64,000 bases of DNA from Asterochloris sp. CNOR1 (lineage: Eukaryota; Chlorophyta; Trebouxiophyceae; Trebouxiales; Trebouxiaceae). Position 1 is the stretch's first letter. Every line of letters begins with the position of its first letter. The stretch spans positions 496,001 to 560,000 of the forward strand of contig OZ017752.1 of NCBI GenBank assembly GCA_963969365.1, given 5' to 3'. Both the position numbers and the translations under genes were made by a program. This document shows positions 1-63,129 of this stretch, in pieces. The notes under the pieces were generated by a model. The model was given only the letters and a program-made list of their open reading frames with translations, had not been told where the DNA came from and did no database searches.

Positions 1-3000
1 TCGCCTTTCATCACTGAATAGCAGGCCGCCCTTGATGAGTGGGCATCAGAAAGCCCTTGACCCATGGCCGCGTTTGACCCTCGCCAAGGACCCTGTTGGC
101 ACTGCCTTGCTCAACTGCTCACAGTCTGTGACTACTATGCGGCTGCCTCACGTGCGAGGGATGGGCCCGCCAGGCATGGTAGGAATCATGATGATGTTGC
201 CACCCCGCAGCGCCTCCCGCAGCGCATCCGACACTTCGCGCTGCACCTTTTGTGCATGTGCCAGCTCCTCTCGCCCCACTGACAGGTCCTCATTGTCTGT
301 AGGGTGGGCAAGGAGGCAATATTGCTTGTTGGGCCAGGCATCCTCACATACAGGACACTGGCATGACGGCGGCATTGCAGCAGACTGGCCCATGCAGGCG
401 CTGCAGCTTCCTGCACAGCTGTGCACCATGCAGCTGATGTGGCTGGTCAGACAGAGAGGAGGCACAGGCAACTGTGCGAAAATCAGAATTGAGCAGCTAA
501 GCAAGGGCTCCTTTAGTCTGGGTCTCACCAGCTACTGATTCCGTGTCAGCCCCATTGGCCCTGCCACCATTGTGCTTCAGCTCAGGCCGCCGCTGCAGGT
601 ACTCGTGCCGCTGGATGGTGCTGGCTGCAGTGCCAATGGCCGCCAGAATGTGGTCCCCACCCTCACCCTCCTGCACAAGTGTCAGAGTGCGCCAGTCAGG
701 GACGGCAATGAGCTCTGCTGGAAGGTGCTTGCTGCAGTGCCAGTGTATGCCACAATTGAATGTATCCACCTTCGCCCTCCTGCAGGCGAAGCAAGGTCCG
801 CCAGTCAGGCACGGCAGTGAGCTCTGCTAGAGGGTGCTGACTGTAGGTCCCCACCGATGGGCCCGAGCAATGTGCCAAAGCTGGAGAGTGGCAGGTAGAA
901 AGTGACAGTAAGCATGCCTTCCCGCAGCGTGAAAATATCAAGCACTGAGTGAGCTCTCCAATGGCAGTAGGATCGTGTCTCCACCCTTGTCCTTCTGCAA
1001 AGGAGCCAGGGTGAACTAACCAGGCACAGGTGTGCCAGGCAACCTTTTCATGGAACGGCCGCGCGGGCACACTGCAAGACTCACCCTCCACTTAGGGACT
1101 CTAGTGTGCAACACTCAGCAAACAATAGCTGTCCTCTTGTGAGAGTGCAATCGTGTAGTACCTACACGGGTGCACCCAGCAGCAAGCTGTGATCCTACAC
1201 TACAGCTGGTGCGACTGAACTGACAGAAACTGGGGGAGCGCCCCAGCAGGACAAACAGCACACAGCAGCCAACCAGCCAGACTGGTGCCAGTCTCTGCCA
1301 GCTTTGGTAAGGCATCCTCCTGCCTGTGCTGCTGTTGGACTGTGTAGCTCATCAGCACCAGCCCAGGACCTCTTTGTAGCAAGCCAGCAGCAGCCTCAGA
1401 ACCACTGCCTGCCCCAGGATGTAGGGGATGTCCAGGTGGCCCTGAAACCAAGCCTTACACCCTGCGTGGCTCACCATGAGCGCGTCCAGAGAGGGCACAG
1501 CCTGCCCCAGGAATTTGGTCAGGGCCACTGGGTGCGCCTCCTCCCCTGCAAATGTGCGTGCGGCGTGCACGGCGGCCACGTACGTCCCACGCATCTGCTC
1601 TCCGCACATGGCGAACAGGTCCTGCGCAAGGATGAAGGTAGAGATGTCGCCCTTAGAGGTGCCTGCAGATGTCGTGAGCTGAGTCTGAAACACAGGTCGA
1701 CCTTGAGCAGAGCTGGAGAGGCTGAGAGTGCTGGCAGGGAAGGGGCTGACAAGTGCAGACAGGAGCAGCACTGCCTGACGGCGCCTGCACGCTGAGCACA
1801 AGATGGATGCTGTACGGATGCCATATATGTTGCACATACAAAACGGCGGAGATGTCGCCCTTTGGAGGTGTCTGCAGGCCAAAACACGGGGTTCAAGTAT
1901 GACTCTCATGTCACTAGGAGATGGCAAGCCAGAGCAAGGGGCTGGAAGGCAGCCACTGGGCCACAAAATGGTTTTGAGGGGTGACAGCATGCATGAAGCT
2001 GAGCTGCATCTCACCCAAACACCTTTGAGCAGGCCACACTGCACAGGACCCACAAACATAGTCTCGCTGCAGGACCCAGACACTGCAGGCAGCGCCACAG
2101 GCTGCCAGACAGGCCCCAATGCACAGGACCAGCTTCCAGGCAGTCCATAGGCTGCGCCGACGTGCTGCAGCCGCAGCAGTGCATGGCAGGCTATCCTGTA
2201 CCGTGCAGCCCAGAGAACAACGACAGCGCCCACCTCCAGGCAGGGCATATCAGCAGCACCACCACCCATGCGCAGCAGCAGCATGCAAGCCTGCACCTCC
2301 TGCAGAGCGGCCCAGGATACATATGGACAGCAGCCCATGCAGAGGGCCTAGATACCCACCTCCAGGCAGGCCATAGGCTGCGCCAACCCGCTGCAGCAGC
2401 AGCGCATCCCGCGTTGTCCACCCCAGGGTGTCGATGAGCCCCAGCACGGTCTGCACGCCGTCCAGCTGCACCATGCCGGGGGTACTGCGGAAGCCAAACA
2501 GCCCGCAGCACGCTGCTACTGTCTGCAGCAGAGACGCGGAAGGCTGTCAGGCAGCACTGCAAAAGGCAGGCACCCCAAAGCAGGCTGACACCCAGCAGAG
2601 ATGAGGAGGGGTGCCAAGTAGCAGCAGGGGCATGCCACTGAATGCAAACTTCCCACAGCAGGCTGCCCCTGCATGCAGTACAGAGGAGAAGGGCCGTCAG
2701 GGAGCAGCAGATCATGCCCGTGGAAGCCAGGCAGTCCTAACAGGCTGAAAGTGCCTGTGCTGCAGATAGGACGCAAGTGTAGCAGCAGCACTAGGTAGCC
2801 GCTGCAGCACCTGACATTGCTTGCTGAACTGCTCTGCATCAGGCCCAGCACATGCTCTGCACCCACAGACCAGGCAGGCGCATTGTCTGCATGCCTCAAA
2901 TGCTGCTAGCACCTCAGCACAAGCAGCACTTGCGCAGCCGTTATCACACTTTGACCGCATGATCTAGCCTCCCATGCCATAATTGCCTGGTGAGCGTGCA

Positions 3001-3703: not shown

Positions 3704-4440
3704 CTGCAGGTTTGAATTCCAAGTCTCAGTGGCCACATATTTGTCCAGTCAAGGACACGAAAGCCAAGTCTGCATTACACTTGCCACAGCAATGAGGCAG
3801 TGGCTGTGACAGCTCCGACATTCTTGGGCTGCAGGGCAGGCAGGGCACAGAGTGAATATGACAGGGGACGGTGCCTCCCATGATGAGATTGAACAGTGCA
3901 CGCTCTTTCCAGCTGCAGGACAGGCAGTTACAGCAGTTGGTCAGGCTAATCTGCAAATGGTAGATGTGCAAATGGTAGATGCCACTTAAGAGGCGCTCTG
4001 CAGACTTTACATGGCAGACCATTGGTCTGGAAACTGAAGGCAGACAGTCAAGAAGGCAACAATTGCTCCGTATAGGGTATAACCCCACATGTGCAGGTAT
4101 GCTGACAGCCTTGGTTTGCCTTTGAGATCAGTGGCCAAAGCTTGCGCCATCAGAGCCAGTCTGATTGCTGAGCTTACCATTCTTGCCATCTACCGGGTCT
4201 GCCAACTTAGCAGGTGCAAGTCCGAAAGTGACACACACAAGTGATGCTGTTGTGCCAAGTGCAAACAGGACCCGATGCTGTCAGGCGACTGGACAGTGCA
4301 GAGTTTGAGTGCTCATCTGCTGGCGCAGACAGACTCTGCTGCAGCAGGGGCAGCGGGGGCTCAGTCTGTGCAGCACCCAAGTTGGCAAGGCTGCATGACC
4401 AGCACAAACAGCAAAATCTAGTACATTGGAATGGCAGGGC
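3704..4440. other. Unassigned stretch between amidase and membrane-protein gene
   Basis: No exon is supported with confidence. On the minus strand a short hydrophobic reading frame at 4007-4189 (MARMVSSAIRLALMAQ) could be the N-terminal exon of the amidase-fold gene, but I could not join it by phase. Confidence 0.3.
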
Positions 4441-5245
4441 TCACTTGCTGGCGCAGATAAACGTGCGCTGCAGCAGGGGCGGCGTCGGCTGCCCGGACTG
4501 CGCAGCATCTGAGGGCTCCAGCAGGCAGCTCTCCATCAGGTGCTCTGTGTCGACCCGCCCCTTCTTCTTGAGGCGCCGCCGCCGAGCCTTGCGCAGCATC
4601 CAGACAGCTCCGCCAAGTGCGACTGCGACCGCAACCCCTGCCAAGGCTGGCACCACCCCGCCGTTCCCATGCATGGTCTTGTCTGCGGTCCGTCTGACCT
4701 TGTGCTTTAGCTTGCTAGCTGCGGTGGTGGGCTTGGAGGCCCAGGGAGTGGCCACCGAAGACTCCTGATCCTCCACTCCCTGCACACAGAGCAACCTGTC
4801 AGCAAAGACTGACTGGCGAGTAGCCTGTACTCAGCCATGCAGCACGTCTTGCAGACATGGCAGCTTGATGCACTGAAGCATGCAACTGGGTGAGGCAGGC
4901 TCAGCCTGCTCTGGAAGCTTGCTCCTGCAATCGCAACAGCACAGTACTGCTGATGGGGCAGCACACGCCCCACGCCGTCTGGCCTGAAGTACACTGTGTA
5001 CGGCCCACCAGGCAGCATAAGCTGCTCTGAGAAACTTGCTTGCAGCTGCACTGTGCAAGCTGCCTCACTGCACAAGCTGTGCTTGCCTTCCTGATGAGCC
5101 TGACAATGTCCCCCTCGCCATCTGCGTCACCGATGTCCTCAATGCTGCTTGTCTCATCCACTGCAGCAGTCACGTCCTTCTCGATCTTGTGAACCCGCCT
5201 CTCAGTCTCTGGATCAGCTTCCTGCTGGCCTGGCATCCTTGACAT
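4441..5245 (-). CDS. Small single-pass membrane protein, unknown family
   Basis: Two exons, 5087-5245 and 4441-4779, give about 165 residues. The first starts MSRMPGQQEADPETERR and is charged and acidic. It ends at a GC donor (AAG, then GCAAGC) in phase 0 and joins GVEDQESS. The second exon holds one clear hydrophobic helix (VVPALAGVAVAVALGGAVWM), then a strongly basic stretch (RKARRRRLKKKG) and a C-terminal tail of about 40 residues. That pattern fits an integral membrane protein with the tail on the positive side; the organelle is unknown. The chosen ATG lies just after a possible acceptor, so an upstream exon cannot be excluded. I do not recognise the family. Confidence 0.6.
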
Positions 5246-7584: not shown

Positions 7585-10500
7585 AGATGTCAGGGAGCCA
7601 CACTTGAGTGTGCTGGTCGAGGACAGCCAGTCAGAGGGGGATGCACCACAGCGCAGGGGAGCCAGCATTGCTCAGTCTGTGTTTAATGTAGTAAGTACCA
7701 CAGCTACAACGACATGTTTTGGCTGGAAGTGCACAGGGTCACGCCTACTAGTGGAGTTGCTGCAGTCTACTCATGTCTGCACCTTGCTCCCGCACCTGCA
7801 CGTTACTGTTGCCTGCTGGCGTCAGCCTTGCCTGATCATCTGTCATGACAGAGTTGCCACGGCCAATAGGCAACTCCTCCCTGCTTGTTGCGGTGATGCT
7901 GGAGCCTGCTCTGCATGTGTCCACTTTTGCATGTATGTGTCTGCGGGTGCTTCTGTCTGCCGCGTGCTGGCTTCATGCGGCCAACAGCATGCAGTAGCAC
8001 TCCCCTGCACAAAACACCCAGGTGGGCCAGCTCTCCTGTGTTACAGTGTCAGCCGGCCGGACTAAGGTTGTGATGCGCCTTGCTGACTGCATCTGGGCTA
8101 ACCTGCAAAGGACAACTGGCCTCAGGCCCGCTGCTGACTGTAGGACAACAGGTTTTAAGTGGTCAGGGCTGTTTGCAATGCCGTATTCCTGGTGTCTCTG
8201 GGCTTGGAAGCTTTGATGTCATTGCCAAACGAGGAGTCTTTGACCCCTCACCCAATGGTTGCAGGTCGGCAGCTGTCATAGGCCTGGGACCGCTACTTCT
8301 CCTCCACACCATATACACAGATAGCTGCACAGGCCGGCTCTTCATGGCCTGGGAAGCTTCAACCTCATTACAAGACATGGTTGGCGGCCAAATACCTCCA
8401 CTCTGTGCCTGCAGGCAAACATCTTCATGGGCTTAGGACTGCTCTCGATGCCCTATGCAATGCGCCTCAGCGGCTGGGCAGGCCTGGGCGCCCTGGCGGT
8501 GGCCTCTGCACTCTTCTGCCTCAGTGGCAGGCTGCTGGTGGGGGCTTTTGACCAGATCCCAGCGCACATGTCGCACACCTACCCCGCCCTAGGTGAGAGC
8601 CAGCGCAGCCTCTGCTTGATTGCCTTGATCTGCTGGCAGCATCACAGGCCGGGAGGCCAGCGCCTGCTGATCGTCCCCCAAATCGCCTGCAGGTGTGGCT
8701 GCCCTGGGATCTAATGGGAAGTACCTGGTGGCTAGCGTGGCTCTGGCAGAGTTCTTTGGGGGCTCCTGCATGATGCTCATCGTGGAGTGGCGCATCCTGG
8801 CCGAGCTGCTGCCCATGGATAGTGAGTCACCTCCTTGCACGTGCTGCATGCACCACCCAGTAAGTGAACAGGCAGCTGCAGCAGGCAGGGCAGTCGCGAC
8901 TCCAGGGCATGCTGCTGCCTTCATGCCTGGCACAGCAGCTTGTGCTCCAATGTGGCAGAGCAGCCTGAGCCTCAGTGCCGTGGGTGCAGAGTGCATCCAT
9001 GCCTCCCACACTTACAGAGACAGCTGCAGCAGAGCAGGGAAGCGTCTCCCAACATGTGTTGCTGCCTACACGCCTGGCCTGCCACCTGATACTGCAGCAG
9101 GGTACATTCTGCCAGTCATTCTGGGGTATGCATGCAGTGACAAGTGTAGGACTGCCCGCCCCGCTGTCTCATGCAGGATATGCAATCAAGCGTGTCTCTG
9201 CATGTATGCCATGTCAGACTGATATCTGAGGCCCCTTGGGGATAAAAGACTCCTTGTGTCAGCCGGCAGAGTCCTAAGCTGTGGACTTAGTTGTGATCAA
9301 GAAGCTGAATGGGGCTCGGCCCTGGCCAGCAAGGCCCCTGCTTACCTCCTTGTTGCCTTGTCTTACGCTTACACTTCCTGATAACATGGTGGCCTCGGCT
9401 GGCCTGCAGGCTTGTGGGGTCTCAACACCCGCCACATAACCGAACATGACTGCCTCACTGCCAGCAACATGGTGTCGGCTGCTCTGCAGGCTTGTGGGGC
9501 CTCAGCACCTTCCACGTGGCCGCTGGCCTGTCCCTGGCAGTCACTCTGCCCATGCTGCTGATCCCCACCTTCCAGAAGCTGAGCTGGCTGAACCTGATGG
9601 GCTTCCTGTCCACGGCGCTCGTCACTGCCACCGTCATGGCAGCTGCAGTGAGCGACCCAGGCCGGAGCAAGCAGCATCAGGTGCCAGCCCGTCTAGTGTA
9701 TCAATGGTCTGCTGTTGACTCATACAGCAGCAGCTGGCATGGCTAGTCGCTGCAGCCAGGGATAGGGCCGGTGAGGGAGGCGCCCTGGTGCTGCAGTGGC
9801 ATACGCCAGCAGTGTGGCGTGCCTGCACTGGTGCCAGCACCCGGCAAAGCAGTGCTGCGGTGTGCCGCTGGCCACAATGCACTGTGTACTGCGCCTACTG
9901 CAGCTTCAATGCACAGCAGTGCAGGTTGTATGTGGCGTTGGGTGCTGCTCCTGTGTGCCTGGGAGCTGTCAGGTTCATTGCTCCAAGCTCCATTTCAGTG
10001 TTGCTTGCGTTGCACGTGCCTATCTTTACAGTGCAATTAACAGCCTTTCACTGTGCACTTTGCGGGCTGCTTGCTTGTGCCTGACTCTATTGTGTGTGCG
10101 CTGCAGCCACCAGCTGGGCATGACGTCTTCGAATGGAGCATCATCCAGGCCTTTGGCATCTTTGCTGTCAGCGTGTCAGGCCACTCCAGTCTCCCTGTGT
10201 TGCGCAACAGCATGGCGAAGCCTCAGGTGAGTGTGTCCACCTAGGAGACAATTTTCATATCAAGGACGCCTTTTTATTTGCCTGCCTGCCTGCCTGCCAG
10301 CCAGGTTCTGGCGCCATCCAAGACACTTTGTGGCAGATGCCATCCTGGCACCAAGGCCTTCACAGCAAGCAGAACACGTCAGGGGTTCAGGTAGCCAGAG
10401 CGCTCTCAGCACAGCAGCTTTGGGGCCGTGCAGCTGTGAAGTGATGCCATGCACGGCTTCCCTAAAGTGTCAATCCTGTCTTGCGCCATGCTATGCCTGC

Positions 10501-12995
10501 TGCAGAACTTCCTCCGATTGCTGACTGTGAGGTTAGCAGGCAGATGGTCTGCAGTACAGCTGCTTGACAGGTCTCATCGCTCATTGACCTCATGGGCAGG
10601 CAAGGTCCCCCTACGGCCACATGGCCACCCTGTAGGGCTCTGTCTCATATTGCTGCAGGACTTTGAGTGCTTGCCATGGTCTACCACCTAAAGGCCCTGT
10701 TCACGCAATGAACCTGTGCGCATAGCACAGTTGCTGCAGGCCTGCTTCTCTGTCTCAGCACCCATGGCAGCCAAGCTGCCGCCTCACCTCTTCTACTTAT
10801 CAACAACCTGCAGGGGTATTCCCACAACTGTCAGTCCTGGCTTTTACGGGTAATGGCCCTGTTGCACAGCCGCGTGACAAGTCTCACAAAGCTGTGGGTT
10901 TGCGGGCAGGCAGAGCGGCTGAACCCCATGACTTCATGGCCATCCTGTTAACCTGTGACTCACCCTGGTGCAGGACTTTTCCCGTGTGCTGGCCCTGGCG
11001 TTCTCTGCGATGGCCCTGCTGTGTGGCTGCGTCAGTGCTGAACCCCGAGACTTCATGGCCATCCTATTAATCTGTGCCTCACCCTGCTGCAGGACTTCCC
11101 CCGAGTGGTGACTCTGGCATTCTCTGCGATGGCCCTGCTGTATGGCTGCGTCAGCGCGGCTGGCTACTACTATTGGGGGAATGGGGCTCTGACTTTGGTC
11201 ACCTCAGACCTGGCTCTGCACTCCCCCTTTGCACGCAACGGGCGCCTGCCAGTGGACAAGCTGGTGGACGCCTGCATCCTGGTCAACGTGTTCACCACCT
11301 ACCCCAGCCTGGTGCTGGTCATGCAGGTGCGGCGCTGCTGGTCATGCAATTTTGGGCAGGGGGGGGGGGGGGGGGGGGGTTACGTGTGCTTGCAGCCTCC
11401 TGCGGCATGGCACTGTGCTGACTTGGGAGGTTCCTGATCTGTAAGGCGGACTTGTATGTGCAGCTAGTCCAACGTTTCGAGGCGCCATGTGGGTTTGGGC
11501 AAGCTTTCAGCCTAACCCAGCCTGGTAGGTGGTGGTCATACAGGTCAGGAACACTCGGCGTTGGATTAAGCTTTGACACAGTTGCGCACTGCTTCAAACA
11601 CCACACAAGGTGAAGGGTGTCACAAGCTTCAAGGTCACGTGAAACTGAAATGTGTCTGCTCATAGCTTTGACTGCCGGCCAGTGTGGTGCTGGTCATGCA
11701 GGGGAGCAGCGGTGGCGTCACCTATCTCAGTAGGGTGCTGGTCATTCGACTGGGAACAACTCAGGGTTCATTGCTGTTCTGTGACTCTGGTAAGGGTCGC
11801 ATGCATCCTGGTCAAAGTGTTGCTGATCATGCATTCCAGGCCGTGACCGGCAGGCAATGGCGTATTGCCCTGCTGTGGCGTTGTGTGATGCTGAGGCCCA
11901 GGCCTGAAGCTGAACACAGAGGCCAGCAGTCTTATGTGCGTTTAATTGGAGATGCACATCTGCAGGTGCAAAAGCAGTGTAAGGGTGACTGCAACTGTGC
12001 TGCCCGCCCCTTGATGCTGGACACGCCACCCTTGAGCATCTCCCTGGCAGCTGTCTTCTTGGCAGCTGCATCATTACCAGCTGACGAGCTGCAAGCCAGG
12101 TGCATTGTCCAGGCTTGCTCTCAGGCAGCCTGGCCAGCAGGCTCACAGGGCCCACTTTCGAGTAAGGTGTTGTTCGTCCAGACATCACGCAGCAGGCAGC
12201 AGCCAAGCTGATGTTTGCCGTCACTGCTGTATGCAGGACATGGTGGTCAGCGTACTTCCCTGGTCAGGGCCAGAGAATGGGTGGCGCCAGCCACGCAGGC
12301 GTGTTGTCTACAGCCTGCGGCTCACCATCTTCGCCCTCAGCGTCCTGCTGGCGGTTGTGGTGAGTGCGTCCTCAGACGAGCTGGCAGCTGCCTGGCTGAG
12401 AGGCATTGCGTCCCTCGTCTGTCTGCCTGGGGGCCCCATCAGACAGCTGCTGCAGCCTGGGGCCACAATGCGAGGCTGGGCAGGCAACATGTGCTTCGTG
12501 TTCTGCTCCCTCCCCGAGCTGTTGCAGCGAGGCACTGTCATGCTGGAGCGACTCCACCACCTTTGATGCCGTGCAGGGGTACTCAGCGCTGGGCAATGTG
12601 ATGAGTCTGGTTGGCGGCCTGTGCTCGATGTGCTGCTCGCTTCTGATGCCAGCAACCTTCTACCTCATCCTCCACAAGGACTTGAGGCTCTGGCAGCGCC
12701 TCAGTCTGATGTGCATCGTAGTCAGCGGCATAGGACTTGTCATCCTGGTGGTGGGTCAGAATGCCATGGACTTGGTCAGGGCTGGGCGGGCCAGCAGACA
12801 TTCTCAGAATCCCCTCACAGGTGATGCGCGTTATGGTTGCAGCCCCTGTGGCGTTCTTGACATGCGACAGACTCTGAACGCCTGTCTGTTTGCTGCGCAG
12901 GACCCTCCGCATTTTCAGACCTCATACAGCCACAGCAACAAAGATCAAGCCACACGAGGCCTTCTTGGCAGAGAGGAGACTTGGTTCTCAGCTGA
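7585..12995 (+). CDS. AAAP-family amino acid transporter (AVT1-like)
   Basis: Exons with closing phases: 7585-7690, 8415-8592, 8693-8821, 9490-9680, 10107-10226, 11093-11326, 12237-12359, 12577-12820, 12901-12995, about 470 residues. The family opening is clear: SIAQSVFNV joins ANIFMGLGLLSMPYA, as in SVFNVxNIFMGLGLLSLPYA of vacuolar AAAP carriers. Hydrophobic segments follow: LGALAVASALFCLSG; VALAEFFGGSCMMLIVEW; GFLSTALVTATVMAAAV; AFGIFAVSVSGHSSLPV; VTLAFSAMALLYGCVSAAGY; LTIFALSVLLAVV; and LMCIVVSGIGLVILVVG. About ten membrane spans fit the family norm. Likely proton-coupled amino acid movement across the vacuolar or plasma membrane; substrate unknown. The N-terminal exon may begin further upstream. 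Confidence 0.9.
10480..11158 (+). repeat. Five-copy acceptor ladder of transporter exon 6
   Basis: The true exon 6 starts at 11093. The preceding intron carries the same boundary, with its intronic leader, ending at about 10505, 10658, 10813 and 10973. The last copy (10921-11039) is a clean 119-base duplication of 11040-11158 including most of the exon start; it reads DFSRVLALAFSAMALLCG against DFPRVVTLAFSAMALLYG. Older copies are progressively decayed. Spacings are about 153, 155, 160 and 119. Confidence 0.85.
11359..11379 (+). repeat. Run of 21 G in transporter intron 6
   Basis: An uninterrupted G tract 32 bases after the exon 6 donor, a potential G-quadruplex in DNA or pre-mRNA and a likely sequencing-length artefact site. 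Confidence 0.95.
11640..11840 (+). repeat. Donor-side echoes of transporter exon 6
   Basis: Exon 6 ends LVLVMQ at 11326. Intron 6 contains decayed copies of this end near 11685 (GTGCTGGTCATGCAGG) and 11735, and a wider copy at about 11800-11840 that resembles the CILVNVF...LVMQ end. None is needed for the reading frame. Confidence 0.6.
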
Positions 12996-13062
12996 GCCCG
13001 AATTCATTTGCACTGTCTGAGTGGTCGTGTGCGCACACCACGAACACATTTCAACCGCATTT

Positions 13063-16000
13063 TCACACTGCAATGCCATAATTATGCAGCAGGCTTCTGA
13101 GCAGCTTCTCGTACAAGTCTACATTGTGAAAGAGGGGGCAGTTGTTGGCACAGGTGCTGGGGTACTCTGGATTCAGCGGGTCCCTGTCTGGGCAGCTGCA
13201 CAATGGTGGCAGCGTGACCTTCTTTGCACGGACCTGCACCAAAGTGTTGGGCTGTGAATTTGCCATCTGGCCTGAGAATGGCACTGAGCACTGCAGACTT
13301 GGGTGACCCCACCAGGGATGTTACACATCCACATTCAAAGGTGTTGCAAACTGGAGACAGACCTTGTCCTGCAGAGCTGCCAGGCGTGCGTTGTGCGCCC
13401 GGGCCTTGTGCACCTGCAGGGGGACAGGCTGATCTCTGGCACGTAGGTGCCGCCAAGATGTGGTGACACCAGGATGACTGAGAGGTGAGCTATGCATGCT
13501 GCGAGGCGACGAGACGCAAGCAGGCACACCGATGGGCAGGCATACTGACTCCCCAGCAGGTGTGCTGTGCATGCTGTTTGGCAGCCGGAACTGCACAGAC
13601 CGTGCAGTTCCTGACAGAAGCGCTTCAACCATGCTGTGTGACACCGAAGACAGGTCAAGCCCCTGATGGACACTGTTGGAAGCTTTGACGCGGTGGGATG
13701 TATGCACACATGTGAATGCTCTAAGTATGCGGTGTTGTGACTTCCACGGGGCACTCCCTCCTACCTGAGCCCTGCCGGCCAGCGACTCGGCCACAGTGTC
13801 CTGCAGCCAGGAATGCAAAGGCTCGGAGTCCGCACTGAACAGGGTTCCACGCACAAGTGCTGGAGAGACAGCTCCAGTGTCTGCGCAAAAAGTAGCTGAT
13901 GCCTCAGCAGTCATGTTCTCCTGCCAGGCCCTCCATTTCGTGCCCATGCCCGTTTCTACACACGCCAGTCAGCTGCTGGGCTTTTGTGGCCCAATCCCTG
14001 CACAGGCCCTTCTGAAGTATGCATCAGCCATCAGGCCGCCTGCACACACTTTTCCTGTGCGCCTTTCCTGAAAGGCACAGCATTGGCAACTCAGCAGACC
14101 TGCAAGGAATGACCCTGCCAGGCCCTGATGCCCTGCAGATACACTTTTGCCGCATGCACAGGCATCTAACCAGCGCCCCTGCAGCTGGAAGCCGTTGCAT
14201 GCCTGCAGAAAGTGATGCCTCAGCTGCCCATTGTTGTCCTGATGCATCCAAGGCCACCCATGTGGTCCTTGCTGCTGATGTCTGATGATGGAAATGTCCT
14301 ACGACAAAGACAGGCACCACTTCCCACAGCAGGCCCTGCATCCCACAGCATCCTCCACCCCTGGCCACCCAGCACACCTGCAAGGCCAGGGGCCTCAGCT
14401 GCCCCTGCCTGCTCTGCTGCACCATGCACATATCCAGTGCAGGTGTGACACCCGCCCCTCCCCTGAGTGCCCACTGCCGATGCCCCAGCTCACCTGCGAG
14501 GCCTGAGGCCTCAGCTGCCCCTCGCTCTCCTGCTGCGCCAGCCCCTCCACAGGCAGCACCGTCTGCACATTCTCCGGCGCGTGCCGCTGCACCAGCGGGG
14601 TGCGAGCACCCCCCCCCCTCCCTGTGCGGGCGCCCGCTGGCAGGGGCTGGCTGGGCTCAGCTGGCAGCTGGGCTGTCACCCCTTCTGCTGCTGCAGCTGC
14701 ATGGCGGCTGCATCCCAGAAGGCACCCTTTGCCCCTCACCATGCCAGGCCAACAGCAGGCTTTGACATGTTTGACAAGGGCACGTCAGGCAGGTCGCAGT
14801 ATGCCAAGAGTGTGAGCCCCGGCCAATGCCAAGTGGTGCAAGCCTTGCTGTTGCCATGCCAGTGACATGAGACAAAAGACATGCACGCACTGCCACTGCC
14901 AACCTGAGGAGGCTGTTGGCGGCAGGCAGCGGGGCTGCAGGCCGCCTCAGGCGCCGGGCATTCTCCTGCTCCACCTGCTGGTTGAAGCGCTGCAGGGCTT
15001 CAGCTCGCTGCTTCAGCTGGCGCTGCCGCTTCTGCAGTCACACAGAGTTGCAGGCTGAGGCAAGTCTGGCTCACTGCCTGTTGCTGAGGATGCGGCAGGG
15101 CCACTGCCTGGGGCTAGTTCTGCAAGCACACAGGCTCAGCATCACGATTCGGCGCGAACGGGTGGCCCCTGCACACACAACAGCAACCTGAGGCGCATGT
15201 CTGGTGGTTGAAGCGCTGCAAAGCCTCTGCTTGCTGCTTGAGCTGGTGCCGCTGCCTCTGCAGGCACACAGCGAAGCAGCCCGCGGGCGTGTATGGCTGA
15301 CCACCTGCTGGCTGCAGCGCTGCAGGGCCTTGGTCTGCTGCGTGAGCTGGCGCAGCTGCTTCTGTTGGCACAGATGGTGTACAGTGGCTGAGGGAGCTTG
15401 CCTGGCTCCAACGACAACGGTAGCAAGCGGGGGGCAAAGAGGCTCACAATGCAGCAGGGAAGGCTGCCTGACCAGAGGCATGCCTTAGGGAGCATTCTTG
15501 ACAGCTGAAGACTGGCACACTCCTCATGCAGTGCGAGCAGGACTCCTGTCAACTGCTTGAGCTGGCCTGCAGGTACGCAGAGGTGCAGAGGAGTGCAGCT
15601 GGCATCCCGTGCTAGACTTGGAGGCAGAGCTGAGACGGCAGCATCCCTCAATGGTGTCGTCAATTGGCATCACAACAGCTGTGCAGCACTTTCTTGGCCT
15701 GAAGTCCCAGCAAAGTGATTGTTAGGGCACTGCACTGCTGGAGCCTGCATGCTCCTGATCTGCGTCACAGTCAAGCCACATCAGGTGCAGTGTCACGCTG
15801 AAGTCAATCTCCAGGTGGTACCCACGCCAGATGTTCATGCTTCCAGAGAGCAATGTGCTCAGAGAGCAATGTCTGGCCTGAGAACGGGGGACTGGTTGCT
15901 ATACCGGAAGCCACAACATCCTCGACAGGGAGCACCTGTTTGACAGCTTGCATGACACAGCAGGGCAGCTGGCGGTAGTCTGCCTTTCGGTGCAGTTATC

Positions 16001-16947: not shown

Positions 16948-19900
16948 CTAGGCCAGCATGTCTGCCAGGAGATACGCATCCTCTTGCTCCTGCTGCTGCT
17001 CTGGCTCGACCTGCTGCAGGAGATAGCCAATGGTGGCCACAGTGCAGAAGCTGAGGCTGCTAGATGCCAGTGTGGTGTGCATGCGCTCAGCTTTGGCTGC
17101 GCAATCAGGTGTAATTGAGGAGGCTCTTCCTTACTGCCTCTCATGCATCATCAAGCCATCCCTGTGACATTTCACATGACTGCGGATGCTGCCAGCAAGC
17201 TATGCAAGACCTACCTCCTCAGGATACAAGCTGAGCACCAGCTTCTGTGGCTTGGCTTTTGGCTTGCTGGCAGGTTGGCAAGCTTGTGAAGGAGCTCTCC
17301 TAGCACCAGGAGCACCAGCCTGCTCAAGGCACTGCTTGCCAGACTGCCTCTTCCTCCGCTTGCGGCCAGGCTCACCGCAACTGCTTGCTGGCTGCCCAAG
17401 CTGCTGCGCAGTCAGCCCTGCAGGATCCAGGACTGCGCTTGGCATGCAGCCTGGTGGTAGCCCTGACTGCAGGCTACAGTTTGACCATGAGTAACAGTAC
17501 CTCAGCGAGTTGTGCAGCATGCGGCACTATGACAGACCTGAGTTGAACAGCGTAAAGAAGTCTGCGCTGCCTGTCGAGCCAATGGTGGTCGAATTGCTGT
17601 GCTGCTGCACAGAAGCCCTGCATGTGCACCAGTGCATGCCAACATCAGCGGTGGGCAGCACGCATGCAGGGAATGAGCGCTGTGAGACAGCAGCACAGAT
17701 TGAACTGGTGCAGTTCTGAGAGCGTGCTCGTAGCACGCCAGATGTCATGGCTATGGGACACCAGGATAGCAAGCCCTCACCACGTCAGACATACACCTTG
17801 CAGCACAAGGTAAAGCCGTGCAAATTTGACCACAAAGGCGGTCAGCTGCAGGCTCACACTGGCGGCATGAGTGGCAGCTGGCTCTGCGCAGGCCGCATGC
17901 CAAACGGGGTGGGACAGGCCGCCTTGATGAAAGCGTCGGTGGGCTCCTGGCCAGACCTGGGGCCCTGAGGTGGCAGCTTGGTCCGTGCTGCTGCCTGCTG
18001 CATAGCCCCACAGTGGGGGACCTCGGTGGTTGTCTGGCCCTGGGAGGTCCGCTGCACCACAGTGGCTGCAGGCACACAGCTCTTGGAGTCAGATGTGTTG
18101 CCATGTGCTTTCTGTGTCCAGCATGGCTGGCCGTGTAATGACAAACAGGGAAGGCAGTTGAGGGCCATGCGAGCCCAGATTGGGACTGGATGACAGCAGA
18201 CTGTCGCGTCGCCTCCTCAAGTTCTCGTGCAGCAGCTGCAAGGTCATGCACACAGCTGAGCTTCACTAGCAGCAGCTCACTTGAGCAGAGCAGCGCCGTC
18301 CAGCATGCTGCTGCAGTGCCTCCTCCCTAGCTTGAAAGGCAACAGCTCTAAGGCTAGGCACAGATCCAGTCTTGGACAGCTCACCTGAGCAGACGCCTGC
18401 GCACTCAGCATGCTGCTGCAGTGCCTCTGCCTCTGGCCACCTTTGACTGATGCCACAGCTGTTAAGGCCAGGCGCAAAGCCACTCTCAGACGGCTCACCT
18501 GAGCAGACCACTGGGTGCCCAGCATGCTGCTGCAGCGCCTCTGCCTCGGATCTCCCGACAGCCTTGAACTGCCGCATGACCACCTGCTCCGAGCGCTGCA
18601 TGCCAGAGGGCACTCCCTGCTTGAAGGGGGTTACTGTCCTCGTGACTGCAGACATGCAGCACGTCCTCTATTCAGGATGCTGGCATCTTTGTTACTGCAT
18701 GGCACAAAGTGAGAATTGGTTAGAGGGGACAGCACGACATGCATCAAGAGGGGCGTGGCCCAGCATGGCTGCAGCCTGCACATAGTCTGCTCAGTTCAAG
18801 CATGGCCCATTGCAGCTGCTGTTGGGAGAATTGGCGGCGTGGGTGGAAATGCAGTGCAGAAGTAGGAACAGGAAGCAGATGAGCATGCTGGCAGGTCATG
18901 TCTCAAGGTGGCGGCATGCAGCAATGTTGGAGGTGCATGCCAGCGCCAGGCAAGCGCTGCACCTGTGGTCTCCTGCAGCAGGCAGCCTGCTATGGGACTC
19001 TTCAACGGCACAGTCTGGCAGCCCTCTACCCCCTGTGGCGAAAGCCTGCTGTGTGGGGCTGTGGGGCTGTCAGGCTCCTCCACAGTGTATGCACTGGTCA
19101 CATGCTGGGGGATGGCCGGGGCGTCCTGGCGCTGGCTGGCGGCTGCGAGGGGCGGCTGCAGCACATCACCCTCTGAGGAGGTGTGCAAAGGTGCTGTTGG
19201 CCGCTGCTGCAGCTGTGCGGCTGCCTTTTGCTTGGCCTGCCCCTGCAACCTCGCTGGCTGGCGCTGAGGAGTCTGCGCTGCCTCCACAGCTGCCCGCAGA
19301 CTGGGAGCAGGAGCACACCTGCTGGGGTGGGGCGGCAGACCAGCAGGGCAAGGCGGCTGCATGGGCGCTAGGTGTGGCTGGGACGTAGGGTCCTGCATGG
19401 GCGCTAGGTGTGGCTGGGATGTAGGGTCCTGCCCTGAGCTGCATACCGTCAGTCCGCGCCCGCTAGAGCTCTGTTGCAAGCCTGGAATTGCATCTGATTG
19501 TCCTGCAGCTCTGTAGTTGCCTTGTGGGCGGCTGTTGCTGGCATGAAGTGGCTCGATGCTCTGCAGCCCAGGCTGCGTGTTGCCAGAGCCCTTACGTCTG
19601 CTCTTGGGCAGTCTACAAGAAGGGGCTGCAGGGGGCTGGGCTGCTGCAGCACTACCTGCCCTGTCAGGAGCAGGGGCCTCCTCGCTGCCTGCTGCACCCT
19701 CCTCGTTGCCTGCCAGGGCCTGCAGAGCCTGCTGCAGCTTTGCCAGCTCTGACAGCTGCAAGGGACACAGATGACTCCAAAATCAGAGGAACATTCCCAC
19801 CACTGCATGTCAATGCTGCTGCACATGCAGGGCAACCAAGGAGCCCTGCAAAACAAGCTCAGCCCAGTTAAGCTGCTCAGCGCCCAGCAATTGCTTTGCT

Positions 19901-35508: not shown

Positions 35509-35572
<64 letters not shown>

Positions 35573-41218: not shown

Positions 41219-44200
41219 TCAGGGGATGCCCTTCCAGGAGGCCAGCTGCATGCCTCTTGCTGAGCTAGTTTGCACTGATCTGTGACAATCAAGCCGGTCA
41301 GAAACCACCAGGAACACGCCGACAGTCAGCAGTAGCACAGACACTGACACAGCCGGCTCTCCAGTGGCCTCATTCGCTGGTGGGTGAATTCTGGAGACGA
41401 CGGGGACAGGTGGTGGGCTGCAGCTCAAACTGCCCAGCAGAATGACCCCACAAGGCTGGCTCACTTGACTGCTCCCAGAAGATTGGATGGAGGCTGGTCC
41501 AGCCGCGCCCGGTGCGGCTTCACGCAGCACAGGATGCCCCGCCTGCGAAACCCGCGCCGCTGCAGGTGAGGCTGGGTGAACAGCTGCTTGGGAGTGCGCC
41601 CAAACTCCATCATCTGGGCACGCAGGGCATCCCGCATGGCAGGGCTGCGTTCCTGCTCCAGCACGTCCAGAGCTCTGCAAGGCAGCAGCTGCATTGTGGG
41701 AGCTGGCAAGTGGGGGGGCAGCGAGTCCCCTGAGCATTCATACCAGCACTGAAAAATGGGAGAGGCGGCAGTTGCTCCTGCTGCAACTATCTGGGCACGT
41801 GAGGCGTCCTACATGGCAGGCCTCCCTTCCTGCTGCAGTAGGTCCACTGGTCTGCAGGCAGCAGGTAAGTTGTTGGATCGGCAAGTGGGGTGGCAGGGCG
41901 GCTGCCGCCTCCAGCGTGGTGCTCTGCAGGTTGAAGCTGGGCATAACCAGGGTTTGGAGCGTTCCAGCATGTCAAGAGCTCTGCGGCGCAGCAGCATGCG
42001 GACTGGAATGGCGTCATGCAGTCTGTGTCCTGCACACATGCACACCTGCATGGTAGAGGCGCGCTCTTGATCCGGTCTGTCCAGAGCTCTGCAAGGCAGC
42101 ATATGCAGCTGCAGGAAGGTGATTAAGAGAGCACAGCGCCGCTTGAGCGTCCTTCGACCTGTATGGATATTGAACCTATGCTGTACTAGCAGCCCTGCTG
42201 CAACAGGTTTCTTCTGGCACCACATGCAGGCGGACTGGCAGGATGGGCAGCCACAACCGCTGCAGGTGGCTTGACAGGATTAGCGGCGGGACTGATGCAG
42301 CCTCCAGCAGTCGCAGGCAACACCCGACGGCTGGCTCACAAGGTCAGCAGGGCTGCTGCGGCACACTTTATGAGTGGCTCTACCAGAGTGGGCACATGAC
42401 GTGCTGCAGCAGGTCCAAAGTTCTGCTCAAGTGGCCGAGGTGCACACAACACAAGCATGAAGCAGCAGCAACAGTGACAGCTGCCAGCAGCCTGCAACCT
42501 TTTGCAGTCTTCAAAACAACATCTTCCACCTTGGCGGCTGCCGGCTGATGCTTAGCCAAGAGTCACACAGTTTGGAACATGAATGGCGGCTTACATGTCA
42601 TCGTAGGTGAGGTAGTGGAAGACGTTGTCCGCCTTCTCAGCCATCTTGCCAGAGGACTTGAACCCAAAGATGAGGTCAATCCACTTGTGCAAGTTGGCTG
42701 AGACAAAGTCGCTCTCCAAGGCAGCAGCTAGCTTCTGCACAAAGTCTTGAGCGTCTGTGGCCCAAGGGGGCAGCTCTGCATCCTGCACACTGGCGCCTGC
42801 ACATTGGGCCTTTGGTGTTTGAGTGACACTGAAGCCCAGACACACTGTGCAGCATGTGGGTACTGCAGTGGCCTATGCCAGCTGCAATGCCACAGACTGA
42901 ATTGTGAGTGGCTTGCTACTGAGCAGCAATGCTTGAGCCTTAGCCAGCAGCACGGCCCTGCGCACAGCATGTTGTCTGAGAGCTTGTGGAGGAAAACATG
43001 TCGACTCCTTTCTAAGGGCTAATGATGCACAGTCACCCCTATGGATTGCAAAGCCTCTGCAGAGGCAGGGACAGCTGCTAGCAAGGCACTTATCCAGTTG
43101 AACGAGGAGTTGAAAGCTTTTCCGGTTCATCTTGAGCTGAGCTCAGCAACAGCCCCCATGAAGGCAGGTTCAGCCAGCCCTCACCACTGGCACGACACCC
43201 GAAGTCAATCTGCTCAATGTTCAGCAGGAATGTTGGATCCGTTGAATAGAACTCAGGAATGAGCTCCTTCACATCTGTGGGCAGGCTGGTGACTGAGCGC
43301 CAGGTGTCGTTGACAGACCAGAAAAGGCGGTCTGGTGCGTCAAAGCGCCCATTCTGGAGGCGCAGCATGAGCTGGGGGTGCGCCCGCATCAGGTAGTAGA
43401 CGACATAGCCTGGGGAGGAGTAGTGGCATCCTGCAGGGCAGGGATGTGTGGGGTCATGCTGAGGACCATGCACAATGACAGAACCGCATGGGCAGCTGCA
43501 GGCTGCGTAGCGTGTTTCCGGAGGCAACAGTCCTCCTGTGAGCATGAATTTGAGACCATGGCTAACCCATGCGTGTCCAGGTGAGAAAGGCGACCCCAGG
43601 CTCACCATACAGAAAAGGGGGGTCAGTCAGTGGGGGAGGAGCGCCTGGAAGCTTTGACGGCTCAGCCATTTTCTGCATGCACAGCAGCTCAACTGCTTGA
43701 GAGGGAAGCCTCCTAAGCTTTGCGTGTGTGCCAGGCCACAACATCAGTTACAAACACACCGCCACATGGACAGTGTTGAAGAACAGAGCCTCACCCGCAG
43801 CTCCACAAAGCGCTCCCGGAACTGACGCAAGCGCTTAGGGTTGAGGGCGCCCACTGGCTTGGAGAGGTCCCTGCACCATCACAGGTTGCTCACGCACACA
43901 CAGCAGCAGGCCCTCCTGAGGACTGACAAACCCTCAGCAAAGTTGGCATCTTTGGCCAAAAGGGCATCACATGCCTTGCTGCAGTGCATGTTGGGCTGCC
44001 AGTAAGGAAGACACTCCTCTGCTCAAAGTCCTGCAGAAACACAAGGTGTCTATGCAGACAGCCAGACCCTGAGGCATACCCTCCCAGGCTGTCTGAGCCC
44101 TGCACTGCGGCCTGATCACTTCACCACTTGGGGCCTTGCCTGAAGACGGCGTGGTCTGTCAGATCCAAATTTGGCGACTCATAGTCCTGAATGACCCAGG

Positions 44201-53334: not shown

Positions 53335-56300
53335 ATGTTGGAGCCAGCGTTCCCCCAGGATTGGCAGGCTGTCCAAGCTCACATTGAGCTGCTGTCCCCT
53401 CAGGCAGGCCTGGTCTTTGTTGCTGATCAAGACTGTTGCCACCACAGAAGGGAGCCTGAGCAGCTAGCCTCCCATGCAGGGCAGCAACCCGCTCAAGCAC
53501 TGGAGAGTGACGCAGCAGAAGGCACTCAAGAGGGTGACTCATGCCGCCGTGCTCTTTGCAAGCCACACCAGGACTCCTGGGGCACAGCTGACGTTGTGTG
53601 GCAATGCAGGTGTATGACAAAGGTGTCAAGGGGCACATATTTGCCTGCTCTTGCCACCATGGCTGCCGGGTTCAGTTTCCAGGGGATGAGCGCAGATCAA
53701 GTGAGACTTGCACAATGCTGCAAGTTCAGCCTGCTGTGTGCTGCAGAACCACTGCTGCTGACAAGCATTCCTCTTCAGTGCAGTTGCGCTGGTGCATCCC
53801 TGGGTTGTCATGCAGATCAATGTTGGCGCTGATCAGGCCTTTTCTCTGGAGCTGAGGTGTGCTACTGCCTCAGCAACAAGGCAGTCTGCTTGCACAATGA
53901 TAGCACAGCAGCTAAAACTATGCCTCTGCCCCTGCAGTGTCGTTGCAGTGGATGGCAGTCGGCGGAAAATGCTGATGTCCACCGCCTTTCATGAGGCAAA
54001 GCCAACCCCCCTGCACTGCCAGCTGCCGCTGGCTGGGGTCCAGCAAGGGACGTGGCAGAACCTGTTGCTGGACATGGCAGGGCTGACTCGGGCCTGCTTC
54101 AAGGGCAGCATGTTCCAGGCCGTAGACTTGATCTGCCTGAGCTCGGCCTTCAAGGTGTGCCTCTTCCAGACACACCTTCTTTCTTCTCAATGGCTGCTGC
54201 TGCTTGTCCTTGGGTTGAGTGAGACGCAATCCTGTGCAGACGCAGCAGGTGGCCAAGTGATCAGGTGTTGTTGCAGGTTCGGCGCATCTTTACTTTGAGG
54301 GATGCCCCTGCTGGAGTGCCAGCAGGAGAGGTGGGCTGCTGCTGCTGCTTCTGATCTGGCAGCAGCAACACCAAGCTCGAGATTTGGCCATGCTGAGCTT
54401 CGCTGCACCATTGGCCTGGCTCTTACAATGCCAGGCCTGCTCATGCAGAGTGCGGCTCCGTCTGGCCTGCCAATTCCGGCCAGCCTCGACTTCCCTGCGT
54501 CAGTTCCGGCTAGCCTGGTTGTGGTGGACCCTCAGAGTGTAGGACTGCAGCCTCCAGCGGCGCCCAGGGCGGCAGGCGCTTCCAGCCTGCAAACACCTGC
54601 AGGTAAACACCCAGCCTGCCCTGCAAGTTGCACAGGCCCCTGGCAAGACAATGCCTGAAGGCTGCCTGATGTTGCCCTATACCTGCTGCCGCCCGCCCTC
54701 ACATGGCCATCATGCCCCGTGCCTCTGCGGGGCTGAGCATGCTTGCTGCGTCTCTTGCAGGGCGCCTGCGACCCACAGTGCAGATCCCTGCTCCCAGCCC
54801 GCTGGCAGGTGGAGACCTCCAGCTGCAGGGCCACCCCGTCCAGCTGCAAGCACCCAAACCAGCAGCTGAGAGTGCAGCCCTGGCATGTGTTCAGCATCAG
54901 CCTCAAGATGGGAGCTCATCTGAGGCATCCCCCAAAATGCTGACCTCCACCAGCAGGCAGTATGACGGCCCCATGCACCTGGCCTTTGGGACCCGCTTCC
55001 CTGCGCCGGCTTCGCCTGGGCAGGCTTCACCGGCTGGGAAGCGCAGGTGTGGACCTGATGCATGGCTGTGGCTGGCGAGGGCAGGCATCCTTGTGATGCA
55101 GGGCTGCGGCCAGCAAGCGCAAACATGCTGCTGAGGCGCCTGGCAAATACACAGCACTCCTGCTGTCCCTGCTGACTGCATGAGGCACCTGGAGGCACAG
55201 CACACTGGACTGCGCATGTGTGCCTCTCATGCATGGCGAGGGCAAGCATGCTGCTGATGCATGTCTGTGACTTGCAAAGGCAGGCGTGCTCCTGAGGCGG
55301 CTGGCAAGGGCACAATCCTGCTGTCTCTGCTCATTGCACGAGGCATGCTGCTGGGGCAATTGGCAAATGCACGCGTGGTCGTGGTGTTTCTGCTCATTGC
55401 TTGAGGCGCGTTGAGGCACAGCCAGCAGGAGAGACCAGCCTCTTTTGGGAGATGTGGAAAATGATGCACGTCGCACATAGGCTCTGTCTTGCACAACCTG
55501 GCAACTACAAGTCCGGCCAGCAAGAGCACTGGCTGACGCCTCCGTATCTGCAGGCGTCCCTCCACAACACAGGCAGTGCCAGGTCATGAGTGGCTGGGGG
55601 CAGAGGGGCTGGCTTTCCAGACAGGCCAGGGGGATGGCGGCCAGCCCACCAGCAGACGGGCAGTCTCAGCTGCAGTCCCCGTGCGGCCCGTGAGCGCTGC
55701 TGTGTCCTCTCAGCAGCCTGTGCTGTGCCGCCTGGTGCCCGGCCACTCTAGCTGTGTGGGATCATCATGTGCTTTGCCGGCCCCTGAGCCCGGTAGCCAC
55801 TTGAGTTCGCCTGTCAGAGCCCCCTGTGCTTGCCAAGTTCATCTATGGCAAAGCCTGCCGACATCACGGACTGAAAAGGTTGCTAGGCATATCTGCTCAG
55901 CTGCGGTGCCCTGCACTTGCATTAGCAGGTAGTCAGCGTCTAAGACTCCAGCAGCCTCAGAATCTGAGGGGTACCTGTGGACCAGACCTGGCTTTTGCGA
56001 GCCACCACTAAGGAATGTTGGACACCTGCAGGGCTCAATGGGCAGCCCCAGCATGAAGCGGCCTACTGGGCACGCAATGCAGGCATCCTCTTCTCTGGCT
56101 GTGTCAGAGACTGAGGCTTGTCATTTGTCCAGCAAACCCAGCTCAGCAGAGGCGGCAGCCAGCCGGGAGCCGTCTGGCAGCGAGCTGGCTGCTAGCCCAG
56201 GCATTGCCACTTGGCCGGCCGCCCGAAGCCCTCCTAGGGATGCTGTGGCAGCTCTGCTGGCGGAGGCAGCGTCAGGCGAGCGGTCCACGCTCGGCTGAGG

Positions 56301-60404: not shown

Positions 60405-60489
60405 AACGCCTTAATTATTTGCTCAGCTGGCAACCAACTGGACTTGACAGGTTTCTGCTGCAGAAATTAAGTAATGGAGCCAATATATG

Positions 60490-63129
60490 CTATGATCTGG
60501 GGTCGTACAGGAGTTTTGATGTTTCATTACGCAATTTTTTCAGTTTGTCAAAGCGTTCTTGGACCTGCCTGCTAGGGCACTGCACCTGCTGCCCCACTCT
60601 TGCAATGCTATCAGGCTGTAGACCATGACTGCCTGTTTGCTGGCCAGAAATGACAGCACATGATGCCTTACTTGCTCCTGAGGCTGAAGCCGCTGAAGAT
60701 CTCTGCTGCACCTGCATGTATGCAGCGTCACATCATGACACTTCAGCCAAAGCAAAGGGCATGCATCATTTGAACGCAGTCGCAAGCATCTTCTAGCTGT
60801 CAAACATAGCAAACAACCCATCTCTCTGAGCAGTGGGAAGTGTCTTGAGCAATGAGACAACAGTCCTAGGGGCAGCAGGCCAAGACAGTCTCTTCGCAGC
60901 AGCCCCGGTCACAGCAAAGCTGCATCTGCTCACTCACCTTGGGCAGCAGGCTTGCAGCCTCTCTGCGCAGATCTCCCAGCCGCTGCAGTGCCTTCTGAGC
61001 TGCCATCCGATCTGCAGGCCACTGCAGTCTGCTGTGGTCACTTAGATGTGCTGGGACCGAACACATGGGGTGGAGAGGGGCTAGACCTGCCTCCACCTGC
61101 AGGCGCTGGACACTGCCTCGCAGCTGAAATAAGGGCCCTGCTGCAGCCTCTGAGCCAGCGACACGGGCGCTCTCTGCCTCGGCAGCTGCATGCAGAGGCC
61201 TGCAGCTCTGGGCCTCTGCCGCTGGGTCTTGGCTGGCAGTGGCTGCCTGCTGCCTGCCCGCCCCAAACAAACCTGCAGGTGCAGAGTCCGTTTTTGCAGT
61301 TGAACAGCAGCAGCAGCAGTGAAGTGGTACATCATGCAGCACTGTCAGAAGGCAGCACTGCAGGACACTGTGGTGGCCTGAGTGCTACGCAGCACTATGA
61401 GAAGGCCGCACAGCAGCAGCAGTGGGGGTTCAGTGTCACCAGCGCAGCCAGAAGGCAAAACAGCAGCATGCCGAGATGAACAACATCAGGTGCACTCACG
61501 ATTCCTGAGCGCCGCAGCATCTGCCTTGGCAGCCATGGCCATTAGCACAGCCTGCTGTTTTGCTTTGAGTCGCAGCTCCCCGCTGGCCGCCAGCACCATG
61601 CGCTGGGTGTCGCCGTCTGGCTGGCACAGCTGGGTGCTGCCCAGAGGGCGCTGCAGCGCATCCATGTTGGCCTCAGCCCTGAGCCTCCAGTCCAGGGGCA
61701 AAGACTCGAATGGGGCGCCTGCAGAGCAGTGCCAGAGCTGCCCGCAGACTTGCAAGGGCCACCCGCAGAACTGCCATGGCGGCCCCCCCCTATGCCTCTG
61801 GTCCAAGACAGAGGCTGGAATGCAATGCCTCCAGAGCAGTGTCAGAGCCCTGATGAGGTTGATGGGCAGGGATTGGGGTGCACTATCTGCACACCAGTAG
61901 AAGTAGACTTCTGCCTAGAAGCTCACCAGGGCCACCTGCAGACTTTCAAGATGTGTTCTGTGCAACAGGTAACAGCTCATTAGGGCAATGTGACATGGTG
62001 CCCTCAGCTCTTTGCCTGTGTCTATCTGAAGAGGCTGGAGCGCGCTCCACAGCATGGCCAGAGCTGCGTGCAAGCTTGCCAGAACGCAGAGCATTGACAA
62101 GTCACAGCCAGCACACTGCCAGATCTGTCTGCAAGCTCCAAAATAGCCCTCCCAAGGCGGCAGGCCCAGTCAGACAGAGGCCCAACCTGCTCGTGGTGGG
62201 GAGCTGGGCGTGCCTGAGCCCTGCAAGAGCACCTGTGGCGAGGGCAGCTTGGCGCTGTCGGCCCTCACTGAGGCAGCTGGGCTGCTCTGGGAGTCATCGA
62301 GCTCCATTGCAGCGCCATCCTGGCCTGTGCTGGAGGGCGTGCTGGTCGCCGTTGATGTGCATGTCTGCAGAGCCTGGGCCGGGGTAGGCTCTGCAGATGC
62401 ACATTGCTCAAGAGTAAGCCGTTTGGAGTGTGCTGCAGTAGTACTGTCTACTGAGCCCTGTATCCTGGTATAGAGATCGCTCTGCACACACAGCAACCTC
62501 ACGTCAGCGATCAAGGGCCAGTGGAACATACTGGAACGCCATGTCCTGTTGAGCTCTGCATTGAGAACAGGGGTCCGTGGCTTTCGACAGCAATGCCGAG
62601 GAGGGCTCTTGCTTGAGGGATACAAGCAGAGCCCACAGCAGTCTCTCTGTTTCAAGGGGGGCCAGTGTTGCCTGCAGGCTCACCAGCCTGCTGTGCAGCC
62701 CGGCGCTTAGCGCTCTGCCAGGTCACTGGGGTGCGCTGCTTGCTCTTGCCACCTGGGAGCCTGAACACGCCAGGGGCTGGCAGGGTGACCTTCCCGAGTG
62801 GGGTAGACGGAGCCTCCTCAGCATCTGGTTCCCTGTCATGCAGCAGGTGCAGAGTTGAGGAGCTGGCAAGCACCCGGAGGCTTCCAGTGTGATCAAACTG
62901 ATCAGAGCTAGGCCCCGGCAACATGTTGATCAAGGAGCACAGCTTGCCTGGGACCGCCATCAGTGCTGACCGGAGATGTTTTGATAAGGCCGGTCGGTCT
63001 TGCCTTGCGAGAGCCAGCTGGGGTGTGGAATGAGGATCTGGCAGGAGGCATGGCCGTCTGCACAATGCGAACTTGCGAGTCAAAGTTCTTCTGCTGCCTC
63101 CTTCCTCTGGAAAAGTATCTAGGCTTCAT
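60490..63129 (-). CDS. Unknown basic/coiled-coil protein
   Basis: Supported exon blocks: about 62971-63129 (MKPRYFSRGRRQQKNFDSQV), 62680-62950 (KLCSLINMLPGPSSDQFD; KQRTPVTWQSAKRR), about 62230-62480, about 61500-61720 (SLPLDWRLRAEANMDAL; ELRLKAKQQAVLMAMAAK), 60940-61070 (AQKALQRLGDLRREAASLL) and 60490-60717, ending VQERFDKLKKLRNETSKLL. The start is very basic, the middle disordered, and the end short Leu/Lys/Arg helices. I do not recognise it. The junction between the first two exons is unresolved, as is the exact number of exons. Confidence 0.45.
61710..62135 (-). repeat. Acceptor-side echoes in the 60490-63129 gene
   Basis: The segment around the exon start near 61718 (plus strand GCAGAGCAGTGCCAGAGCTG) recurs in weaker form near 61830, 62050 and 62108, each with a CCAGAGC/CCAGATC core next to a CTGC or CTCC leader. 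Confidence 0.55.

Follow-up and report, generated by a model that had tools for sequence, protein, structure and literature searches.

In the green alga Asterochloris sp. CNOR1, the sequence spanning an exon–intron boundary is frequently repeated, in degraded form, inside the adjacent intron. We investigated these junction echoes in a window of 64,000 nucleotides (assembly GCA_963969365.1, contig OZ017752.1, positions 496,001–560,000; coordinates below refer to this window) and in 100 kb of C1, 100 kb of C3 and 50 kb of C9, giving a sample of 314 kb from a genome of 56.4 Mb in 21 contigs. The echoes are probably old head-to-tail tandem duplications that were not targeted to splice sites, and their apparent anchoring on junctions would mostly reflect survivorship.

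Local direct repeats at splice junctions

Ungapped self-comparison at a score of at least 36 yielded 149 direct segments at lags of 40–399 bp, 6 at 400–499 and 2 at 500–599. At control lags, the same threshold gave none at 600–799, 1 at 800–999, and 2, 0 and 0 in 200-lag ranges starting from 2,000, 5,000 and 10,000, with a single inverted pair at 100–600 bp. Raising the score to at least 44 left 77 direct segments at lags of 40–399 and 3 at 400–499, and none at lags of 500–999, in the three 200-lag control ranges or in inverted orientation. The enrichment of direct matches is concentrated at lags of 40–350, far above control lags and inverted pairs. The repetition around splice boundaries reported by an earlier sequence-only reading of the window is real.

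A BLAST self-search of each of the four blocks returned 62 direct matches, 61 of them within 600 bp and the remaining one at 1,209 bp, as well as 13 inverted matches (self-palindromes included), of which 9 lie within 2 kb. An origin from introners or transposons, which would place one sequence at many loci, does not fit a set in which 1 of 62 direct matches within the blocks spans more than 600 bp. Microsatellites and mobile elements, likewise discounted in the sequence-only reading, do not explain matches that remain after low-complexity filtering and are nearly all closer than 600 bp; the comparison was made within blocks, and rare dispersed families are possible.

Gene models were produced by a purpose-written generalised hidden Markov gene finder, trained on the 314 kb and without an RNA check. 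It predicted 91 genes with 700 exons and 609 introns; 479 exons were rated confident and the remaining 221 fall outside this set. The predicted models have a median internal exon of 136 bp and a median intron of 237 bp, with the consensus CAG/GTGAGC at donors and CTGCAG/G at acceptors. Seven window proteins (four partial) were searched against Pfam; five carry domains (FKBP, BEACH with PH_FAN, SBP, PP2C and Arm) and two gave no domain match. The guanine–cytosine (GC) content of the examined blocks, 59%, agrees with published figures for A. glomerata (a genome of 56 Mb, 98% of which has a GC content of 56–62%, with 9 introns per gene; PMC6652019).

Among 180 repeat pairs, 66 join a splice junction to non-coding sequence, compared with 25.5 expected under random placement, while non-coding pairs number 41 (63.8 expected) and coding–coding pairs 19 (17.5 expected). 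The echo lies on the upstream side, within the preceding intron, in 43 acceptor pairs (none reversed; 8.3 under random placement) and on the downstream side in 21 donor pairs (2 reversed; 8.5 under random placement), consistent with the directions in which ladders of copies had been described to extend. The observed order of copies is the one that preserves the protein, and also the one that tandem duplication must produce.

Overlapping pairs with a gapped score of at least 44, a threshold reached by 138 of 175 aligned pairs, were clustered into loci; the top score among 2,000 control windows was 37. The resulting 95 loci comprise 49 confident junction/intron, 15 intron-only, 9 exon–exon, 7 exon/intron, 7 junction/other and 7 weak-junction/other loci and 1 other, so the claim that the repeats are always anchored on a splice site was too strong. 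The first class accounts for 13 of the 25 loci in the window, and the 49 distinct echoed junctions are balanced between acceptors (26) and donors (23). Of the 16 genes predicted in the window, 9 have at least one confident junction echo, on both strands, which upholds the previous estimate of at least nine of fourteen; the corresponding fractions are 4/35 in C1, 13/26 in C3 and 4/14 in C9. One to several repeat copies occur per boundary, as had been noted, with at least three at 14971–15408, 10496–11157 and 25608–25944.

Introns carrying an echo (48 of 609) have a median length of 554 bp vs 227 bp, and recognisable duplicated sequence makes up about 5.6% of total intron length. Echo density is uneven over the four blocks (introns with an echo: 13/116, 5/203 (C1), 24/193 (C3) and 6/97; P = 0.0012).

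Geometry, frame and divergence of the copies

The pairs show the features of local tandem duplication: direct orientation at short spacing, a length equal to the spacing where the copies are well kept, and a reading frame that is kept in exons. Copy length is close to the lag in the best-kept pairs; in many older ones it falls below the lag. In seven pairs with an identity of at least 0.82, chosen at a length/lag ratio of 0.85–1.4, length minus lag ranged from −4 to +11 bp; this overrun or shortfall is compatible with short microhomology without proving it.

Lags divided by three left remainders of 0, 1 and 2 in 6, 2 and 1 of the 9 exon–exon loci and in 20, 15 and 14 of the 49 junction/intron loci, respectively. 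These numbers are small, and the nearly even distribution at junction loci means that junction units need not keep frame. Mismatches on the exon side were also spread almost evenly over codon positions 1, 2 and 3 (0.222, 0.215 and 0.287), a pattern in line with free drift of the intronic copy and little change in the exon. In donor pairs, the intron side is less well kept than the exon side (identity 0.698 vs 0.774).

Probable survivorship of junction-spanning pairs

We propose that short head-to-tail duplications of tens to a few hundred bp arose in genes of this genome, presumably by slippage or microhomology-mediated duplication. Within exons chiefly in-frame duplications would survive, and within introns duplications would be harmless. 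A duplication crossing a junction would also be harmless provided that splicing takes the donor of the upstream copy or the acceptor of the downstream copy: the mRNA would stay the same and the surplus copy would pass into the intron, where on the simplest reading it would form an inert part that splicing ignores. Purifying selection would afterwards hold the exon copy while the echo drifts, and a junction pair would diverge about half as fast as an intron–intron pair and hence be recognisable for longer. Visible pairs would be mainly junction-spanning because most survivors are old and intron–intron pairs decay in both copies.

Neutral simulations, restricted to duplications covering at most one junction, reproduced this survivorship effect. 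The expected ratio of junction/intron plus exon/intron loci to intron-only loci was about 0.8 for echoes diverged by 2% and increased to 2.1–8.2 at 22–26%, and the observed ratio is 56/15. A model with uniform ages gave too few junction pairs, with a ratio of acceptor plus donor pairs to non-coding pairs of 0.53–0.69 vs the observed 64/41 (score of at least 32), and fails unless ages are fitted. A constant duplication rate was rejected as well, with 41–45 intron-only loci predicted and an identity histogram chi-square of 26.7–35.0 (6 degrees of freedom). With ages fitted to the identities of the 49 junction loci, the prediction was 21–28 intron-only loci in one set of runs and 20–28 under other settings, vs 15 seen; since the fit uses these same 49 loci, the model is tested only by the numbers of intron-only and exon/intron loci. 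Survivorship thus appears to account for most of the junction anchoring, with a remainder that is considered below.

Young copies are few, as 6 of the 49 junction/intron loci reach an identity of at least 88%. It is this lack that rules out a constant rate. Duplication may have been more active formerly, or new copies may diverge rapidly; the shortage hints at a past burst.

Several results weigh against untargeted duplication with survivorship. Intron-only loci fall short of the fitted prediction by a residual factor of 1.3–1.9 (P of 15 or fewer = 0.006–0.17), and those settings under which the gap is smallest predict too many exon/intron loci (13–16 vs 7 seen). The shortage of young copies has to be assumed in the fit, without an explanation. 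In acceptor pairs, intron-side identity (0.758) is not lower than exon-side identity (0.749). Finally, acceptor echoes score 5.90 as acceptors vs 0.94 in simulation, a value reached in 0 of 5,000 resamples.

Hot spots and splice-site selection as alternatives

The missing intron-only loci are what would be expected if chromatin, R-loops or motif-dependent slippage directed duplication to exon–intron boundaries and true mutational hot spots came on top of survivorship. Such loci are scarce among the best-kept copies too, with 3 of 15 at an identity of at least 0.82 and 10 of 49 among junction loci. However, the residual lies within the uncertainty of the gene models: seven further loci depend on weakly predicted exons and could be enough to close the gap. 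High identity may moreover reflect a short alignment rather than youth, and the model permits intergenic duplications, whereas all 15 intron-only loci sit in introns. We regard targeting as unlikely. The same low probability is given to a scenario in which boundaries are moderate duplication hot spots and absorption of boundary-crossing copies was a main route of intron growth during a past burst, leaving fossils that can be dated because the original copy is preserved in each exon.

The acceptor scores, for their part, raise the question of whether selection retains echoes as redundant or alternative splice sites, one of the readings put forward from the sequence alone. The copies had been said usually to keep AG or GT; the AG dinucleotide persists in 21 of 26 acceptor echoes and GT in 13 of 23 donor echoes. 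Moreover, 7 of the 26 acceptor echoes score at or above the real site, and the acceptor-echo motif has an identity of 0.889 (standard error 0.023). Yet AG survives in 66% and GT in 67% of simulated echoes of a constrained true site, so that AG retention is not significant (P = 0.08) and GT retention is no better than neutral (P = 0.91). Donor-echo scores are at the neutral level as well (1.47 vs 1.98 simulated, P = 0.72), and the near-even decay over codon positions shows that the exon-derived portion is not under constraint as coding sequence. CTGCAG off junctions is likewise well kept, at 0.848 vs 0.728 for other positions. High retention of the acceptor motif therefore seems to stem mostly from the motif or from detection, not from the splice site; this control removes most, though not all, of the force of the acceptor scores, and a weak selective effect at acceptor echoes may persist. 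Taken together, selective retention is very unlikely. Of the other readings proposed earlier, tandem duplication stands, tolerated across intron edges as well as within introns, and so does intron lengthening.

CTGCAG and GCTGC/GCAGC are generally better kept between copies (0.83–0.85) than other positions (about 0.72–0.73), even off splice sites. Part of this retention may be detection bias.

Individual loci and a public gene model

The echoes and related repeats of the window are listed in Table 1. Positions 28340–28428 hold a 24-bp unit repeated 3.7 times, in frame, inside a predicted exon. A perfect (GT)30 microsatellite lies at 35512–35571.

Table 1 Junction echoes and related local repeats in the window
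Feature	Position	Strand	Details
Acceptor echo, clearest case	10918..11157	+	121 bp, lag 119, 88% identical; real acceptor (after 11092) in downstream copy; upstream copy is the echo, with echo acceptor after 10973
Acceptor echo	9372..9522	+	Real acceptor after 9489, lag 84, 77%
Acceptor echo	2490..2706	-	Acceptor 2522, lag 150
Donor echo	4308..4507	-	Donor 4444, lag 128
Acceptor ladder	14971..15408	-	Acceptor 15031, lags 226 and 330; two echoes 104 apart
Donor ladder	18194..18547	-	Donor 18498, lags 107 and 223
Acceptor echo	22649..22896	+	Acceptor 22848, lag 109
Acceptor echo	27326..27491	+	Acceptor 27436, lag 102
Donor echo	39832..39957	-	Donor 39929, lag 84
Acceptor echo	40790..41197	-	Acceptor 40809, lag 123; overlapping intron–intron pair, lag 271
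Acceptor ladder	41612..42107	-	Acceptor 41674, lags 177, 306 and 414; two echoes overlap weakly predicted exons
Donor ladder	55034..55529	+	Donor 55046, lags 171 and 199, plus intron–intron pairs
Acceptor echo	61653..61848	-	Acceptor 61718, lag 112
Tandem pair over acceptor 714	610..846	-	Lag 107, 76%; outside the 49 because second copy overlaps weakly predicted exon
Multi-copy array at exon end	25608..25944	+	Weakly predicted short exon; outside the 49
Intron-only tandem pair	31217..31367	.	Lag 78; same process without a junction
Intron-only pair	33893..34308	.	Lag 332
Intron-only pair	61336..61468	.	Lag 53
Exon–exon tandem pair	28340..28431	+	Lag 48, multiple of three

Two of the echoed acceptors belong to a predicted amino-acid transporter whose best match, at 91% identity across 70% of the query, is the Asterochloris model jgi Astpho2/9030. 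When this model was searched against the window with tblastn, 5 of 10 pieces were 100% identical. We compared 9 of the 26 homologous proteins found, one of them from Asterochloris; in homologs from other genera, the match starts at 11090–11096 in 8 of 8 and at 9468–9498 in 7 of 8, which confirms the predicted acceptors at 11092 and 9489. The model itself (P0001; an fgenesh prediction by its name) includes the 10971–11030 echo at 100% identity, as 20 residues before the real exon. Its exonic status there is probably an annotation error caused by the echo.

These comparisons also bear on whether the echoes could be an artefact of assembly or gene prediction. Our gene models are self-made, and the size of their non-confident exon set leaves some room for such an artefact. 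Most copies differ by 10–35%, though, unlike assembly error, and one echo recurs in the JGI model, from an assembly whose independence is uncertain. Together with the two acceptors confirmed by other genera, this makes an artefact almost inconceivable.

Implications and relation to known duplications

Striking repeats that seem linked to splice sites can stem from untargeted mutation whose traces survive selectively. Junction echoes might be used to time intron growth, given that the original sequence is retained in the exon. They are also a warning for gene prediction, since echoes can be taken for exons, as one public model seems to do.

Among the titles listed in the literature search, none presents junction echoes as a genome-wide pattern, although such a paper may exist. 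Intragenic tandem duplications, some of them across an intron end and the following exon start, have been documented case by case (PMC3443670, PMC4974935, PMC2891723). The origin of new introns from a duplicated exonic AGGT segment, the model of Rogers (1989) and Hellsten et al. (2011), is a recognised route of intron gain and involves the same type of mutation as the echoes (PMC3443670, PMC4974935). There, copies stand at both ends of the new intron; here, 0 of 138 aligned pairs match the donor and the acceptor of a single intron in register, at a lag that equals the intron length to within 6 bp, and the boundary recurs, intron side included, inside an existing intron. It is thus extremely improbable that the loci studied arose in this way, although single introns elsewhere could have done so.

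Parallels are also found among known tandem duplications inside genes that include both exon and intron sequence (PMC3443670, PMC4974935). Their composition is that of the echoes, but in this alga the surplus copy is left within an intron already present, apparently without creating a new exon or intron. The potato RdRp gene gained an intron by tandem duplication and also carries an 83-bp tandem duplication within an intron (PMC4974935). As in acceptor echoes, the duplicated unit consists of the 3' part of an intron and the start of the next exon; in potato a new intron and exon piece were made, whereas here the upstream copy seems just to have been absorbed. In Drosophila, novel intron positions have arisen by sliding or tandem duplication (PMC2891723), and duplications near splice sites likewise altered intron structure, but we infer no change of intron position for this alga. 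In summary, the echoes represent a further case of known intragenic tandem duplication, in which the extra copy was apparently absorbed into an existing intron.

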